This document shows positions 47,303 through 58,445 of a stretch of DNA of 64,000 nt, one piece after another. The DNA comes from Desulfomonile tiedjei DSM 6799 (GTDB lineage Bacteria; Desulfobacterota; Desulfomonilia; Desulfomonilales; Desulfomonilaceae). Under the pieces are notes generated by a model that was not told the DNA's origin, searched no databases, and was given only the letters and a program-made list of their open reading frames with translations. The position numbers were made by a program, and so were the translations under genes. The DNA lies in contig NC_018025.1 of NCBI RefSeq assembly GCF_000266945.1, forward strand, positions 5,832,001 to 5,896,000, written 5' to 3'. Numbering within the stretch: the stretch's first letter is position 1; each line of letters starts with the position of its first letter.

Positions 47303-47602
47303 TTCTTTGTCTTCCAGCAGAGGCTACCTCCGGAAAAGTTAAATCGCGACTGTTTCAAAGCGGTTTCGCTAAGATACATCTGGAGTGCTTATAACATACC
47401 GAAAATTGCCCGTCAAGGTCACTTGAGAATAAGTACCCGGATTAATTTAACAATGGGCGGCAACAATCTTTCGGGAACATGCATTCGACATGTGTGTCTG
47501 AATTACTTGCACACCTTTAATCTTTTTTTCCTTTTCAGAGAGGCTGAATTGATGTGGGAGAGGCCGTGAGTGGCTTTATCCTGGCGGCAAAGGAGGCAGT
47601 TC

Positions 47603-47785
47603 ATGAAGACGAGATGTCCTGATTGCGGCCGTGAATTCAGCATTCACTACTATCCGGAGCGGGAGCAGACAACGTGGTGTCCGGAATGCGGGACCTTCTT
47701 CAGCACTGAAGAACATCTGCTCGCTGAGTCTAAGGTATCCTCACAAGATGAGACGTTTGCAGTAGAGTGGCAGATGCCGGGCTGA
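47603..47785 (+). CDS. Small zinc-ribbon protein
   Basis: 60 residues with CPDCGREFSIHYYPEREQTTWCPECGTFF: two CxxC pairs about 18 residues apart, a classic zinc ribbon, then an acidic tail. AAAGGAGG lies six bases before ATG 47603; the longer frame to 47570 is not needed. Possibly binds nucleic acid or protein; no specific function. Convergent with the cysteine-repeat gene that ends at 47790. Confidence 0.65.
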   Translation: MKTRCPDCGREFSIHYYPEREQTTWCPECGTFFSTEEHLLAESKVSSQDETFAVEWQMPG

Positions 47786-47789
47786 CCGT

Positions 47790-48167
47790 TTACCTGCATT
47801 TCACCAGGATGGACGGTTCCTTGATCCATGTAGTGCACAGGCGCTCGGGTGCGACCGGGTAATCGCAGATTCTTGTCGGCGCAAGAGGAAGCACGCAGTC
47901 GCGCACCGGGGCCACCGGACCCGCACACATCCGGAGAGGAACAACAGGAATTTCGCACAGACGCGCAGGCAAAACAGGATTTTCGCATATTCGCGGGGGG
48001 GCAATAGGGGGTTCACACAACCTCATCGGAGCCACCGGTTCTGCATATATTGCAGCAGGTGCTACAACGGTCGCACAGTGTAGGGGAGCAGACGGGTGGC
48101 ATACAAAACCGAATCCTGCCGCAGGGAGCACAAGAATAAACGCCAGAATCACCATCAGCTTTTTCAT
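47790..48167 (-). CDS. Secreted cysteine decapeptide-repeat protein
   Basis: 125 residues. Signal peptide (MKKLMVILAFILVLPAAGFG, residues 1-20), then seven tandem ten-residue units of the type PVAPxRLC (about 43-112), e.g. EPPIAPPRIC, ENPVLPARLC, EIPVVPLRMC, AGPVAPVRDC, VLPLAPTRIC and DYPVAPERLC. One Cys and one Arg per unit, at constant spacing, would give a Pro-rich rod with periodic thiols for disulfide crosslinking or metal binding in the envelope. The only other Cys are two before the repeats and one at the end. The start could be GTG 48173. No family recognised. Confidence 0.7.
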   Translation of the reverse strand: MKKLMVILAFILVLPAAGFGFVCHPSAPLHCATVVAPAAIYAEPVAPMRLCEPPIAPPRICENPVLPARLCEIPVVPLRMCAGPVAPVRDCVLPLAPTRICDYPVAPERLCTTWIKEPSILVKCR

Positions 48168-48241
48168 TGACACACCGGTCCCGAATCTCCAATAAATAGA
48201 GCGTCATTTTATCACGTTTCGAGAAATAGGACACACCAAAA

Positions 48242-49156
48242 ATGAAGATTCAGAGATCTCTTCTGATTCTCCCGGTTAATGTCCCTCGCTTCATCGATAA
48301 AGCTCATCTGAGAGGTGCGGACGCTATAGTACTGGACCTCGAAGATTCTATTCCCCCAAGCGAAAAGGACAGCGCGAGAGAACACGTTTCATCGGCAATC
48401 GGTAAGGTCGGTCGCGCAGGCGCCGATGTCTTTGTTCGGGTAAACAACGATCCCGCTCTTTTTGAAAAGGACATGCACGCGGCTGTTCGATCCGGACTTT
48501 ATGCGATTTTTCTCCCGAAAGTGGAATCGGAGAATTTCGTTCGAGAGACGGAGACTCTTCTTTCCCAATTGGAATCGGAGCGCGGCGTACTGGCTGGTTC
48601 CATAAAGCTATCCCTGCACATCGAAAGCCCCAAAGCTTTGTTGAACCTGCAATCTATACTTGCAGCGGGAACGAGAATCGAGTCCATAAGTCTCGGCACG
48701 GACGACTATTGCCTGGAGCTTGGAGTGGAACCTACTCCCGAGGGAACCGAGTTGTTCTTTCCCTTGGTGATGCTGATCACTGCGGCAAAAGCTATGGGAA
48801 TTCAACCCATGGGAATTCTCGGAAGTGTTGCGGGATATCGTGACCCGGAGGGGTTCAGGAAAGCGGCTGAAAGAGGAAGGCAGTTGGGATGTACCGGCGC
48901 ATTCTGCATTCATCCGGATCAGGTGGATATTCTCAATAAAGTCTTTTCGCCGGATCAGGCGCAGGTGGATCAGGCTTTGCGCATTAAGGCAGTATTCGAA
49001 GAATCCATGGCGCAAGGCCGGGCCGCAACAACGCTGGACGAACGCATGATTGATACTCCAATCTACAAAAGGGCTCTCAGGACTATTCAATTGGCTGATG
49101 CAGCGAAAGAACGCGAAAGAAATGCTGGAGCGGCAACGAGGAATCTGTCCGAGTGA
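48242..49156 (+). CDS. HpcH/HpaI-CitE family lyase
   Basis: 304-residue TIM-barrel. RSLLILPVNVPRFIDKA, DAIVLDLEDSIPPSEK, VFVRVNNDP, IFLPKVES, LSLHIESPKALLNL and LSLGTDDYCLELG match citrate lyase beta-like proteins (citryl-CoA, malyl-CoA or citramalyl-CoA lyases). Mg-binding Glu and Asp residues and the Arg of RVN are present. It is likely cytosolic; the exact CoA thioester is unknown. The neighbour at 49448, an acyl-CoA synthetase, makes a CoA-ester pathway plausible, though a repeat lies between them. Confidence 0.85.
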   Translation: MKIQRSLLILPVNVPRFIDKAHLRGADAIVLDLEDSIPPSEKDSAREHVSSAIGKVGRAGADVFVRVNNDPALFEKDMHAAVRSGLYAIFLPKVESENFVRETETLLSQLESERGVLAGSIKLSLHIESPKALLNLQSILAAGTRIESISLGTDDYCLELGVEPTPEGTELFFPLVMLITAAKAMGIQPMGILGSVAGYRDPEGFRKAAERGRQLGCTGAFCIHPDQVDILNKVFSPDQAQVDQALRIKAVFEESMAQGRAATTLDERMIDTPIYKRALRTIQLADAAKERERNAGAATRNLSE

Positions 49157-53507: not shown

Positions 53508-56500
53508 TCATTTCTCGTCATCAGGCGCAGGGCAGGGGAGAGTGAGATAAAAGGTGGAACCACTTCCGATGCCTTCTGATTCTACCCAAATACGGCCACC
53601 ATGCACTTCGACGATTCGCTTGGCCAAGGCTAATCCTATGCCGGTTCCTTCGGTTTTTTGATCCAATTTGTTAAAAAGTCCGAACACCTTTTCATGGTAA
53701 AGGGGATTAATGCCTATGCCATTGTCTCGAACAAAGAGCAAAGTCTCATCGCCATTCTCTTTTATGCCAATCTCGATTCGCGGATGTGGCTGATCTCCCA
53801 TAAATTTCATTGAATTCTCGATAAGGTTTTGGAAGACTTCCAGTAACCGCGGACGATCGACGAGCAGGATAGGCAGATCCGGAGCCACCTGTACCTCCAC
53901 GCCATGTTGCGCAATTCTTCCGGACAACAGTTCCAGGGTCTCATCTACCAGTTCTCGCATAGGCACTTTTGTCGGCGGATTGAACAGCCTGCCGACCCGG
54001 GAAAGCTCCAGAATCTCTCCCAGAAGTTGTCCCATCTTCTCTGCTGCCTTGTCAATTCGATCCAAGTCAGATTTCAGGTTTTCAGTATTTCCATTGGTTA
54101 CGTTCTCTGCGACAAATCCTAAGAAGGTCCTGATGGTGATCAAGGGACTCCTCAGGTCATGGGAGACCGAATATGTAAATCTCTCCAGTTCGGCGTTCTT
54201 GGCTTCCAGTTCCGTGATCAGTCTTTCACGCTCGATCTCTGCTTGTTTCGCTTCTGTGATATCCCTGTCAAATCCTGCGACTCCACCAACATTTCCGTTG
54301 GCATCAAGAACAGGATAGAAACTGGTGTAATAGAATCTGCCATCCTTCTCGTCTTCGAAGCGCACTGCATAACCGGTTTGCAATACCTCGTTAAACTTGG
54401 CTCTGCTTTTGGCTTCAATATCCGGTGGCAGAATACTGGAAAGTGACTCCCCGAGCACTTCGTTGCTTTTCCATCCAAACCTTAATGCAGTGGCTTCGTT
54501 CAGTGCAACAATGGACCAATCAGCCGATAAGAGGAAGACGGAGTCCGCACTGGCATTCAATATTGCTTCAATGTCTCTGTTTCTTTTCGCGAGGGCTTCT
54601 TCTGCCTTTTTGCGAGCACTAATATCGCGAGCCGCTGCAAACAGGCCGATAATCTTTCCTGATTCGTCGCTATATACAGAGGCATTATATGTGACCTGAG
54701 TCAGATTTCCGCTCTTATGCCGGATCTCCAGTTCATAATCCCTGACCGATCCATCTCTGAATGCCTGTTGATATCCGGCTCGGGCATTTTCGGGACTGGT
54801 GAAATAATCGGCAAAATCCGTCCCGACGAGCTCATTTCGTGAATAACCGGTAACCCGCTCTGTAGCTGTGTTGACGTCATTAATCTTGCCTTCGGCACTA
54901 ATAGTTACCAGAGGATCCAAACTGGCCTCAATGAGACTTCTGTTATATGCGCTGGCTGTCTGCAATGCCTCTTCTGCCCGCTTACGGTCACTGATGTCAC
55001 GGGCCGCTGCGAACACACCGACAATATCCCCGGATTCATCCCGGTAAACCGACGCGTTATACATAACCGGTGTCAACATCCCATTCTTGTGCCGAATCTC
55101 CAGTTCGTAATCTTTCACCAAACCATCTCTAAAGACCTGCTGGTATCCGGCTCTCGCTCTTGAAGGATCGGTGAAGTAGTCGGCAAAGTCCGTCCCAATG
55201 AGTTCATTTCGTGAGAAGCCGGTGACTCGCTCGGTTCCGGTGTTCACATCCGTGATTTTTCCTTCCGCGCTGATGGTCACCAGAGGATCCAAGCTGGCCT
55301 CGACAAGGCTTCTGTTATATGCGCTGGCTGTCTGCAACGCCTTTTCTGCCCGCTTACGGTCACTGATGTCACGGGCCGCTGCAAATAGGCCGATAATCTT
55401 CCCGGACTCGTCACTATATACTGAAGCATTGTAGGTAACCTGAGTGAGGTCGCCGTTCTTGTGCCTGATCTCCAATTCATAGTCTCTCACCGATCCATCC
55501 TTGAATGCCTGTTGGTATCCAGCTCTGGCCTTCGCAGGATCTGTGAAATAATCGGCGAAATCCGTTCCGATCAGTTCGTTTCGTGAATAACCGGTAACCC
55601 GCTCTGTAGCCGTGTTGACGTCATTGATCTTTCCTTCCGCGCTGATAGTCACCAGAGGGTCCAGACTGGCTTCGATGAGGCTTCTGTTATATGCACTGGC
55701 TGTCTGCAACGCCTTTTCTGCGCGCTTGCGGTCGCTGATGTCGCGGGCTGCTGCAAACAGGCCGATAATCTTCCCGGACTCGTCACTATATACTGAAGCA
55801 TTATAGGTAACCTGAGTGAGATCGCCGTTTTTGTGCCTGATCTCCAATTCATAGTCTCTCACCGATCCATCTCTGAATGCCTGTTGATATCCAGCCCTCG
55901 CATTCTCAGGATCGGTGAAATAGTCGGCAAAATCCTTCCCGATCAACTCGTTTCGTGAAAAGCCGGTGACACGCTCGGTTCCGGTATTGACGTCAGTGAT
56001 CTTTCCTTCTGCGCTAATAGTGACCAGCGGGTCCAAGCTGGCCTCGATGAGGCTTCTGTTATATGCACTGGCTGTCTTCAATGCCTCTTCAGCGCGCTTT
56101 CGGTCACTGATGTCGCGGGCTGCTGCAAAGACGCCCGTGATTCTCCCTGACTCATCCCGATAGACGGAAGCGTTGTACATGACCGGAGTCAATTCTCCGT
56201 TTTTGTGCCTGATCTCCAGTTCATAGTCTTTCACTAAACCATCTCTGAAGACCTGCTGGTAACCAGCCCTTGCTCTTGAAGGATCTGTGAAATAATCGGC
56301 AAAATCCGTTCCAATCAGTTCATTTCGTGAATAACCTGTAACCCGCTCGGTTCCAGTATTGACGTCAGTGATTTTTCCTTCTGCGCTAATAGTGACCAGG
56401 GGGTCCAAACTGGCCTCGATCAGACTGCGGTTATATGCACTGGCTGCCTGCAATGCCTTTTCAGCACGCTTACTTTCGGTGATATCGCGAGCTGCTGCAA

Positions 56501-58034
56501 AAAGACCGATAATAGTCCCGGATTCATCCCGATAGACGGAAGCGTTGTACATGACCGGAGTCAACTCTCCGTTTTTGTGCCTGATCTCCAGTTCATAGTC
56601 CCTCACCGAACCATCTTTGAAAGCCTGTTGATAACCGGCTCTGGCCTTTTCAGGATCTGTGAAATAATCGGCAAAATCCGTTCCAATCAGTTCATTTCGT
56701 GAATAACCTGTAACCCGCTCGGTTCCAGTATTGACGTCAGTGATCTTTCCTTCGCCACTGATTGTCACCAATGGATCCAGGCTGGCTTCAATGAGACTTC
56801 TGTTATATGCGCTGGCTGTCTGCAACGCTTTTTCAGCACGCTTTCGGTCACTGATGTCGCGAGCCGCTGCAAATAGGCCGATAATCGTTCCGGAATCGTC
56901 AGAATACACAGAGGCATTGTACGTCACCTGAGTAAGGCTTCCGCTTCTATGCCTGATCTCCAGTTCATAATCCCTCACCGAACCATCCCTGAAAGCCTGC
57001 TGATATCCTTCCCTTGCTCGAGAAGGATCGGTGAAGTAGTCTGCAAAGTCCGTCCCGATGAGTTCATTTCGCGAATAACCGGTGACGCGTTCAGTCGCGG
57101 TATTAACGTCGGTAATCTTACCTTCGGCACTGATCGTGACCAGCGGGTCCAAACTCGCTTCGATCAGACTTCGGCTATATGCACTGGCTCTCTGCAATGC
57201 TTCTTCCGCTCGCTTCCGGTCACTGATATCGCGTGCAACGGTCGAGGCTCCTACAATTTCCCCGGATGCATTCTTAATTGGCGAGACGGTCACAGAGACG
57301 TAGATTTCGTCGCCATATTTGTCCATTCGTTTTGTTTCGTAATGCTCAACGGTCTCGCCCCTTTTAATTCGCTCGAGAATTTTAGGTATTTCGTCCTGAC
57401 GGTCCGGCGGCACCACGACGAGAATGGACTGGCCGATGGCTTGTTCGGCGGAGAAGCCGTACATTTTCTCTGCAGCGGCATTCCAACTCAGGATTGTGCC
57501 ATTCAACGTTTTTCCGATAATCGCGTCATCCGAGTATTCGACTATGGATGCTAAAAGGGCCCTCTCCGCGCTCGCCTGGAGAAGGCCCTGGCTATACTCT
57601 TTAGCCCTCTGTGATGCCTCTTCAGCTCGTTTTCGGTCGCTGATGTCGCGGGCGATCGTGCAGGCCCCTACGATTTCCCCGGATGGATTCTTAATTGGAG
57701 ATACAGAGACTGAGACGTGGAATTGCCGGCCAGTGTGACTCATTCGCTTTGTTTCGTAATGGTCGACTGTCTCGCCTTTTTTCACCTTTTCAAGAATTCT
57801 GGGCATCTCGTCCTGACGGTCCGGCGGAACTACGATGAGAATGGACCGGCCGATGGCTTCTTGCGCGGAGTAGCCGTACATCTTTTCAGCAGCAGCATTC
57901 CAACTGAGAATAGTGCCATCTAACTTCTTTCCGATGATCGCATCGTCTGAGTATTCCACTATCGACGCCAAGAGGGCTCGTTCAGCCAGGTTAATTTCCT
58001 CCGGACCTACGCAGTCTTCCGTCCCATTGATCAT
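53508..58034 (-). CDS. Multi-PAS soluble histidine kinase
   Basis: 1508 residues from ATG 58034 (GGAGGTGCG upstream; the frame is open to 58154 but has no site). Two PAS domains of the SIVEYSDDAIIGK type (about 20-275), then seven tandem PAS copies of about 124 residues (SLIEASLDPLVTISAEGKI ... AARDISDRKRAEKAL), one divergent PAS (AILNASADSVFLLSADWS), HisKA with phospho-His in VSHDLRSPLITIRTFLGFV, and HATPase_c (NLIENSMKFM, DNGIGI, GTGIGLALAKRIVEVHGG). No membrane helices seen. The tandem copies are almost identical, indicating recent amplification. First gene of the unit 58034-51499. Confidence 0.88.
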   Translation of the reverse strand: MINGTEDCVGPEEINLAERALLASIVEYSDDAIIGKKLDGTILSWNAAAEKMYGYSAQEAIGRSILIVVPPDRQDEMPRILEKVKKGETVDHYETKRMSHTGRQFHVSVSVSPIKNPSGEIVGACTIARDISDRKRAEEASQRAKEYSQGLLQASAERALLASIVEYSDDAIIGKTLNGTILSWNAAAEKMYGFSAEQAIGQSILVVVPPDRQDEIPKILERIKRGETVEHYETKRMDKYGDEIYVSVTVSPIKNASGEIVGASTVARDISDRKRAEEALQRASAYSRSLIEASLDPLVTISAEGKITDVNTATERVTGYSRNELIGTDFADYFTDPSRAREGYQQAFRDGSVRDYELEIRHRSGSLTQVTYNASVYSDDSGTIIGLFAAARDISDRKRAEKALQTASAYNRSLIEASLDPLVTISGEGKITDVNTGTERVTGYSRNELIGTDFADYFTDPEKARAGYQQAFKDGSVRDYELEIRHKNGELTPVMYNASVYRDESGTIIGLFAAARDITESKRAEKALQAASAYNRSLIEASLDPLVTISAEGKITDVNTGTERVTGYSRNELIGTDFADYFTDPSRARAGYQQVFRDGLVKDYELEIRHKNGELTPVMYNASVYRDESGRITGVFAAARDISDRKRAEEALKTASAYNRSLIEASLDPLVTISAEGKITDVNTGTERVTGFSRNELIGKDFADYFTDPENARAGYQQAFRDGSVRDYELEIRHKNGDLTQVTYNASVYSDESGKIIGLFAAARDISDRKRAEKALQTASAYNRSLIEASLDPLVTISAEGKINDVNTATERVTGYSRNELIGTDFADYFTDPAKARAGYQQAFKDGSVRDYELEIRHKNGDLTQVTYNASVYSDESGKIIGLFAAARDISDRKRAEKALQTASAYNRSLVEASLDPLVTISAEGKITDVNTGTERVTGFSRNELIGTDFADYFTDPSRARAGYQQVFRDGLVKDYELEIRHKNGMLTPVMYNASVYRDESGDIVGVFAAARDISDRKRAEEALQTASAYNRSLIEASLDPLVTISAEGKINDVNTATERVTGYSRNELVGTDFADYFTSPENARAGYQQAFRDGSVRDYELEIRHKSGNLTQVTYNASVYSDESGKIIGLFAAARDISARKKAEEALAKRNRDIEAILNASADSVFLLSADWSIVALNEATALRFGWKSNEVLGESLSSILPPDIEAKSRAKFNEVLQTGYAVRFEDEKDGRFYYTSFYPVLDANGNVGGVAGFDRDITEAKQAEIERERLITELEAKNAELERFTYSVSHDLRSPLITIRTFLGFVAENVTNGNTENLKSDLDRIDKAAEKMGQLLGEILELSRVGRLFNPPTKVPMRELVDETLELLSGRIAQHGVEVQVAPDLPILLVDRPRLLEVFQNLIENSMKFMGDQPHPRIEIGIKENGDETLLFVRDNGIGINPLYHEKVFGLFNKLDQKTEGTGIGLALAKRIVEVHGGRIWVESEGIGSGSTFYLTLPCPAPDDEK
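54593..57200 (-). repeat. Seven tandem ~372-bp PAS-coding repeats
   Basis: The same sequence, e.g. around CCAGAGGATCC at 54911 and 55283 and 55655, recurs every 372 bp, exactly 124 codons. Copies share long identical stretches and differ by scattered changes (GTGTTC/CTGTAG-type variants), so the block has probably been shaped by unequal recombination. Confidence 0.9.
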
Positions 58035-58445
58035 TAATCGCACCTCCAGAGCCGAAAATTGTAATTTCTTCTGGGCTCCGGGTCCTAAGAGTTGAGGATA
58101 CCCCGGAGAGTTGATCTTTTTCGCAACAACGATTCCTTGCTGGAGCATATGCAAGGCAAATTATTCATGTCAGATCACAACAAGTACGGCATGTAACATA
58201 AGTACGGATAATTTGAGGTATTCTACAAAATGCTGATAATCTCTGTCAAGATTATAGGTTTGCTGTTCCAGACTCCGACTGCCTGATTTTGCTTTTTCAT
58301 AATCCGCTGCAAGATCGCGGTGGGGGGCATAATTGTCTGTGACTTTGTCAAAAGGCATTCTCGCAATCCGGTCGGAACGCTGCAGGCCTTTTGATTGAGG
58401 TCTCTGCGGCCGACGATCCGGTTGAGTGCGACTATCGGCGGGCGC
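58035..58445. other. Intergenic region before the PAS kinase
   Basis: About 410 bp with two overlapping minus-strand frames (58170-58358 and 58223-58453) that have no ribosome site or recognisable motif. The promoter of the signalling unit is expected here but I could not fix it. Confidence 0.4.

Follow-up and report, generated by a model that had tools for sequence, protein, structure and literature searches.

The window analysed here, a 64,000-nucleotide stretch of Desulfomonile tiedjei DSM 6799 DNA lying on the 6,500,104-base contig of a two-contig genome of 6,527,027 bases, contains a small gene built on decapeptide repeats, each closed by a cysteine. The question raised by this locus is whether the array is a genuine protein family and, if so, what evenly spaced thiols on a secreted chain might do. 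The gene lies exactly where the original prediction placed it (47790..48167), on the minus strand, with an ATG at 48167, a TAA ending at 47790 and 125 codons for amino acids.

The protein starts with a predicted Sec signal peptide (MKKLMVILAFILVLPAAGFGFV; 48102..48167, minus), read by eye as KK followed by a hydrophobic core. Homologue alignments delimit an N-terminal module behind it (48045..48101, minus) with two Cys and a degenerate unit 0 (ATVVAPAAIY, without Cys), whose VVxPA motif is common to the homologues. Directly after unit 0 stand seven ten-residue units (residues 42-111; 47835..48044, minus; consensus xxPVAPxR[LI]C), namely AEPVAPMRLC (48044-48015), EPPIAPPRIC (48014-47985), ENPVLPARLC (47984-47955), EIPVVPLRMC (47954-47925), AGPVAPVRDC (47924-47895), VLPLAPTRIC (47894-47865) and DYPVAPERLC (47864-47835). 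Pro3, Pro6, Arg8 and Cys10 occur in 7/7 units, in agreement with the description first given of seven units with Pro at fixed places and ending in Arg-x-Cys. The C-terminal tail (TTWIKEPSILVKCR; 47793..47834, minus) ends in KCR and shares the pattern T-x-[WY]...K-C-[RP] with two homologues. The mature protein has 10 Cys among 103 residues. Secretion, which had also been claimed, is probable from the signal-like N-terminus read by eye in 4/4 homologues; a lipobox ([LVI][ASTVI][GAS]C) was absent by eye (GFVC in D. tiedjei, GQGC in M47, SSEC in G001).

The joint periodicity of C, P and R in the mature protein, scanned at periods 5-15 with 5000 shuffles, was best at period 10 (score 23; shuffle maximum 19). 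Codon identity between units at positions 1, 2 and 3 was 63, 70 and 33% in D. tiedjei, 62, 76 and 29% in the homologue of the metagenome-assembled genome M47, and 55, 69 and 31% in that of G001. Third positions are thus randomised while the first and second are kept, from which it follows that selection acts on the P-V-A-P-x-R-x-C pattern of the protein. In D. tiedjei, six different codons are used across the seven Arg8, and Pro and Cys codons are mixed; together with the codon bias, this means that the units are either ancient or much diverged at their silent positions, with their residue pattern kept. Tandem Repeats Finder (TRF) did not call the unit DNA of the gene as a tandem repeat. Across species, units of the same index were no more alike than units of different index (permutation p = 0.94, 0.94 and 0.18), so that the array resembles one uniform scaffold; this lack of index-specific likeness suits a periodic scaffold better than a set of unit-specific binding sites. 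Elsewhere in the window, a 1548-residue sensor kinase (53508-58154, minus) carries a long tandem series of PAS-like domains that are almost identical, called by TRF as a 372-bp unit in 7.0 copies with 81% matches, and a second, 417-bp array. The DNA repeats of this kinase are still visible, unlike those of the decapeptide gene, and its PAS-like array is therefore recent or homogenised.

Protein and profile searches returned three clear relatives, all in the family Desulfomonilaceae: one in G001, of the same genus as D. tiedjei, one in M47 (G011 in the family set; contig JAIWNO010000037.1) and one in G008, of another genus. The three identities to the D. tiedjei protein are 42, 43 and 32%. A three-unit profile matched 4/18 Desulfomonilaceae genomes, D. 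tiedjei (G000) included, with one copy per genome, and the gene is therefore dispensable to the lineage. Profile searches gave no convincing relative in the rest of the class or in 395 genomes of the phylum, the latter yielding one 14-residue match at 9.6e-4. Stringent family patterns run over 84,980 species genomes returned only the same two MAGs; these narrow patterns failed to recover G008, and distant relatives may therefore have escaped them. Viral contigs gave no relatives, Pfam and NCBIfam no match above cut-off, and the PDB no relative, its only match (SspH2, 8e-5) being one of composition to leucine-rich repeats. The literature searched described no comparable decapeptide repeat with Cys in bacteria. 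The statement that the protein belongs to no known family thus held for the libraries consulted, and the gene represents a genuine repeat family that is under selection at the protein level, restricted to one lineage and absent from these libraries.

The signal-like N-terminus, the VVxPA module and tandem xxPVxPx[RK]xC units are present in all four proteins, with full units numbering 7 in D. tiedjei, 7 in M47, 7 in G001 and 3 in G008; the flanks are kept while the repeat number varies. Over the 24 units, Pro3 was found in 23, Pro6 in 22, Arg or Lys at position 8 in 22 and Cys10 in 21. Every full unit of D. tiedjei, M47 and G008 has Cys10. M47 has an eighth in-phase Cys in its tail, and G008 has five Cys exactly ten apart (43, 53, 63, 73 and 83) despite having only three full units. 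G001 keeps Cys10 in 4/7 units and has Cys instead of Pro6 in two. The fixed thiol spacing of the original prediction therefore stood in two of three relatives and failed in G001; loss of the Cys period in homologues, which it had named as a refuting outcome, is thus partly the case, in one relative of three, and the family cannot be defined by a strict Cys period. Mature Cys counts were 10 in D. tiedjei, 11 in M47, 10 in G001 and 6 in G008; G001 has lost three Cys10 and gained other Cys to remain at 10, as if thiol number counted for more than exact place. Pro made up 16-22% of the four mature proteins. None contained a CxC or CxxC cluster, and the closest Cys pair in any of them was four positions apart (CEKIC, G001).

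In three of the genomes the repeat gene is divergent from a gene for an HpcH/HpaI aldolase/citrate-lyase-like protein (48242..49156, plus, in D. tiedjei; PF03328, 4.7e-44): the two starts are 74 bases apart in D. tiedjei, about 69 in G001 and about 113 in G008. The genes folC and lptD lie on the other side of it in D. tiedjei and G001; the neighbourhood in M47 differs. Among 15 family genomes that carry the lyase gene, the repeat gene adjoins it in three and is absent beside it in twelve. The lyase belongs to a metabolic enzyme family, and so the pairing is uninformative on the function of the repeat protein. In the 74-bp intergenic region of D. tiedjei (48168..48241), a ATGATAAAATGAC-like block, TGATAAAATGAC and GTGTCAATGAAAAA are conserved with G001. 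The first and last of these are a possible -10 and start region, and the blocks around TGATAAAATGAC and GTGTCAATGAAAAA suggest a promoter, with the GTG at 48173 as a possible start codon. The conservation of GTGTCAATGAAAAA in G001 makes this GTG, six bases (two codons) upstream of the ATG, a candidate for the true start. A sigma-70 consensus scan returned no site, and Rfam no family in the region.

The reading that we favour, tentatively and at somewhat short of an even chance, is that of an exported, extended, proline-rich chain whose evenly spaced thiols form disulfides, making it a cross-linker of the envelope or the extracellular space. The chain would be exported through Sec and would remain mostly extended, its backbone held so by Pro3 and Pro6, with Arg/Lys8 presenting a regular positive charge and one thiol displayed per ten residues. 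Cys10, or Cys at other positions in one relative, would be oxidised by a periplasmic VKOR/DsbA machinery to give disulfides within and between chains, and the linked chains would form a layer or tether, probably in the cell envelope or beyond it. In D. tiedjei, G001 and G008, a single open frame holds both a VKOR domain and a DsbA-like domain; a disulfide-forming system is therefore present, and oxidative thiol chemistry is available in the periplasm. Of the two roles first proposed for the thiols, crosslinking is plausible from these domains and from the mature Cys counts, and metal binding is the weaker. The odd count of M47 speaks against crosslinking, and the even numbers elsewhere prove nothing. 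D. tiedjei is a strict anaerobe of sulfide-rich surroundings, in which extracellular disulfides may be reduced, and this counts against crosslinking, as does the dispensability of the gene to the lineage. No rod of the kind that was to be modelled emerged: AlphaFold2 gave no fold with either the family alignment or a register-expanded repeat alignment (mean pLDDT 41), a value in keeping with an extended or disordered chain, though it may only reflect alignments of 3-10 rows.

Among the thiol oxidoreductase genes, one of the DsbA family (PF01323; G000:C1:1203217-1203786) reads through a TGA that lies in frame in the active site (SDFV-TGA-PYCYIGKG), present in G000, G001 and G008 alike and giving a U-x-x-C motif. 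Its product looks like a selenocysteine DsbA/FrnE-like protein. Selenoproteins of this kind have probably been described before from related bacteria.

Alternatively, though with low probability, the exported protein may buffer metals or thiols, its Cys array binding soft metals or carrying persulfide in the periplasm. Ten Cys in 103 mature residues are many for a small exported protein, and a sulfate reducer encounters both sulfide and soft metals. Metallothioneins, likewise small and Cys-rich, are defined by CxC and CxxC clusters; such clusters are missing from every mature homologue, for which reason metal binding is the weaker proposal, and lone Cys at ten-residue intervals, separated by Pro, are poorly suited to metal clusters. 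The immediate neighbours include no metal-transport or resistance gene. A zinc-ribbon-like ORF (71 residues, CPDCG...CPECG; 47570..47785, plus) adjoins the repeat gene in D. tiedjei and would speak for metal handling, but no matching ORF lies beside the G001 homologue. The two are convergent, with only 4 bases between their stops.

Somewhat less probable again is that the protein serves as a proline-rich spacer or an array of ligands, its P-V-x-P-x-R motif binding an envelope partner and its Cys being secondary. Pro3, Pro6 and Arg/Lys8 are at least as constant as Cys10 over the 24 units, and Cys is the residue that drops out in G001 (3/7 units). This is opposed by the retention of Cys10 in every full unit of the other three proteins and by the Cys phase of G008, which extends into degenerate units that lack R; nor is there a known partner.

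That the protein is a fast-evolving, lineage-specific product without an important function, maintained by chance or by weak selection, appears improbable. Its occurrence in 4/18 family genomes, its variable repeat number and its 32-43% identity would be expected of such a protein, but the strong codon-position bias between units, the conservation of the sense frame in all homologue pairs and the conserved neighbourhood in three genomes are not. In six-frame comparisons of these pairs, the sense frame was best in every pair (238, 262, 222 and 114), the best non-sense frames reaching at most 123, 171, 135 and 80.

It is scarcely credible that the frame is open by chance or is the antisense of a pentapeptide-repeat gene, and the homologues refute this: weak database matches on plasmids, on phages and in some family genomes do sit on pentapeptide-repeat genes, read in a frame or strand that is non-coding and spells xAPxRxAPxR, but in 4/4 genomes the sense frame is uninterrupted and is the one best conserved, variation falls on third codon positions and not on the first or second, and there is no Pfam pentapeptide match. 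The array is therefore not a chance repeat of the opposite strand, which the original prediction had named as an outcome that would count against it. Pentapeptide-repeat genes read in the wrong frame or strand are a general source of false matches to Pro/Arg decapeptide queries, with E-values to about 1e-4 or lower. Several candidates were discarded: a plasmid match (H1, 9e-5) lay one base out of frame with an annotated pentapeptide gene, phage matches at 1e-3 to 3e-4 lay mostly on pentapeptide-repeat genes, and profile matches in G002, G009, G006 and G041, with second matches in G000 and others, were stop-containing frames, reverse strands of pentapeptide genes or other low-complexity stretches. 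Pentapeptide repeats are short tandem repeats of the pattern A(N/D)LxX. The decapeptide protein resembles them in its short tandem units, ten residues being the length of two pentapeptides, but it lacks the A(N/D)LxX pattern and any Pfam match, and the database similarities are out of frame or antisense.

For the cross-linked chain, the nearest likenesses of design in the literature searched are found in vertebrate skin and its appendages. Avian EDCRP has a central array of short Cys-bearing repeats of 7-9 (at times 10) residues, and EDCRP and mammalian KRTAP arrays have CC every 8-11 residues and a Cys content of about 29-38% (PMC4423139). Short Cys repeats in variable number between conserved, unique N- and C-terminal flanks are common to these proteins and the decapeptide family, and EDCRP and KRTAP are thought to be disulfide cross-linked (PMC4423139); they differ in being eukaryotic, intracellular in cornifying cells and built on CC pairs, and in their higher Cys content (about 10% in the repeat protein). 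SPRR proteins (cornifins) are likewise short, rich in Pro and Cys, predicted to be disordered and part of a cross-linked cornified envelope (PMC8348711), but they are eukaryotic, Gln-rich and cross-linked by transglutaminase, whereas the repeat protein has a fixed Arg, predicted Sec export and no Gln/Lys bias. No sequence relation to SPRR, EDCRP or KRTAP was found (no Pfam match above cut-off), and these are therefore likenesses of design only and not relatives. The genus Desulfomonile is marked by a collar, an invagination of the cell wall (PMC7773648). It is conceivable, at long odds, that the repeat protein is a disulfide-linked component of this collar, a bacterial design counterpart of the vertebrate cornification proteins confined to some family members with collar morphology. 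The family, small, predicted to be exported and new to the libraries searched, has a clear protein-level pattern, and its members, with 3 or 7 full units and with Cys10 kept or moved, form a natural series for effects of Cys spacing. If its chains are cross-linked, the proposal that an anaerobe has an envelope cross-linker would become testable, and the protein would be a compact bacterial example of the design of vertebrate hair, feather and skin proteins.
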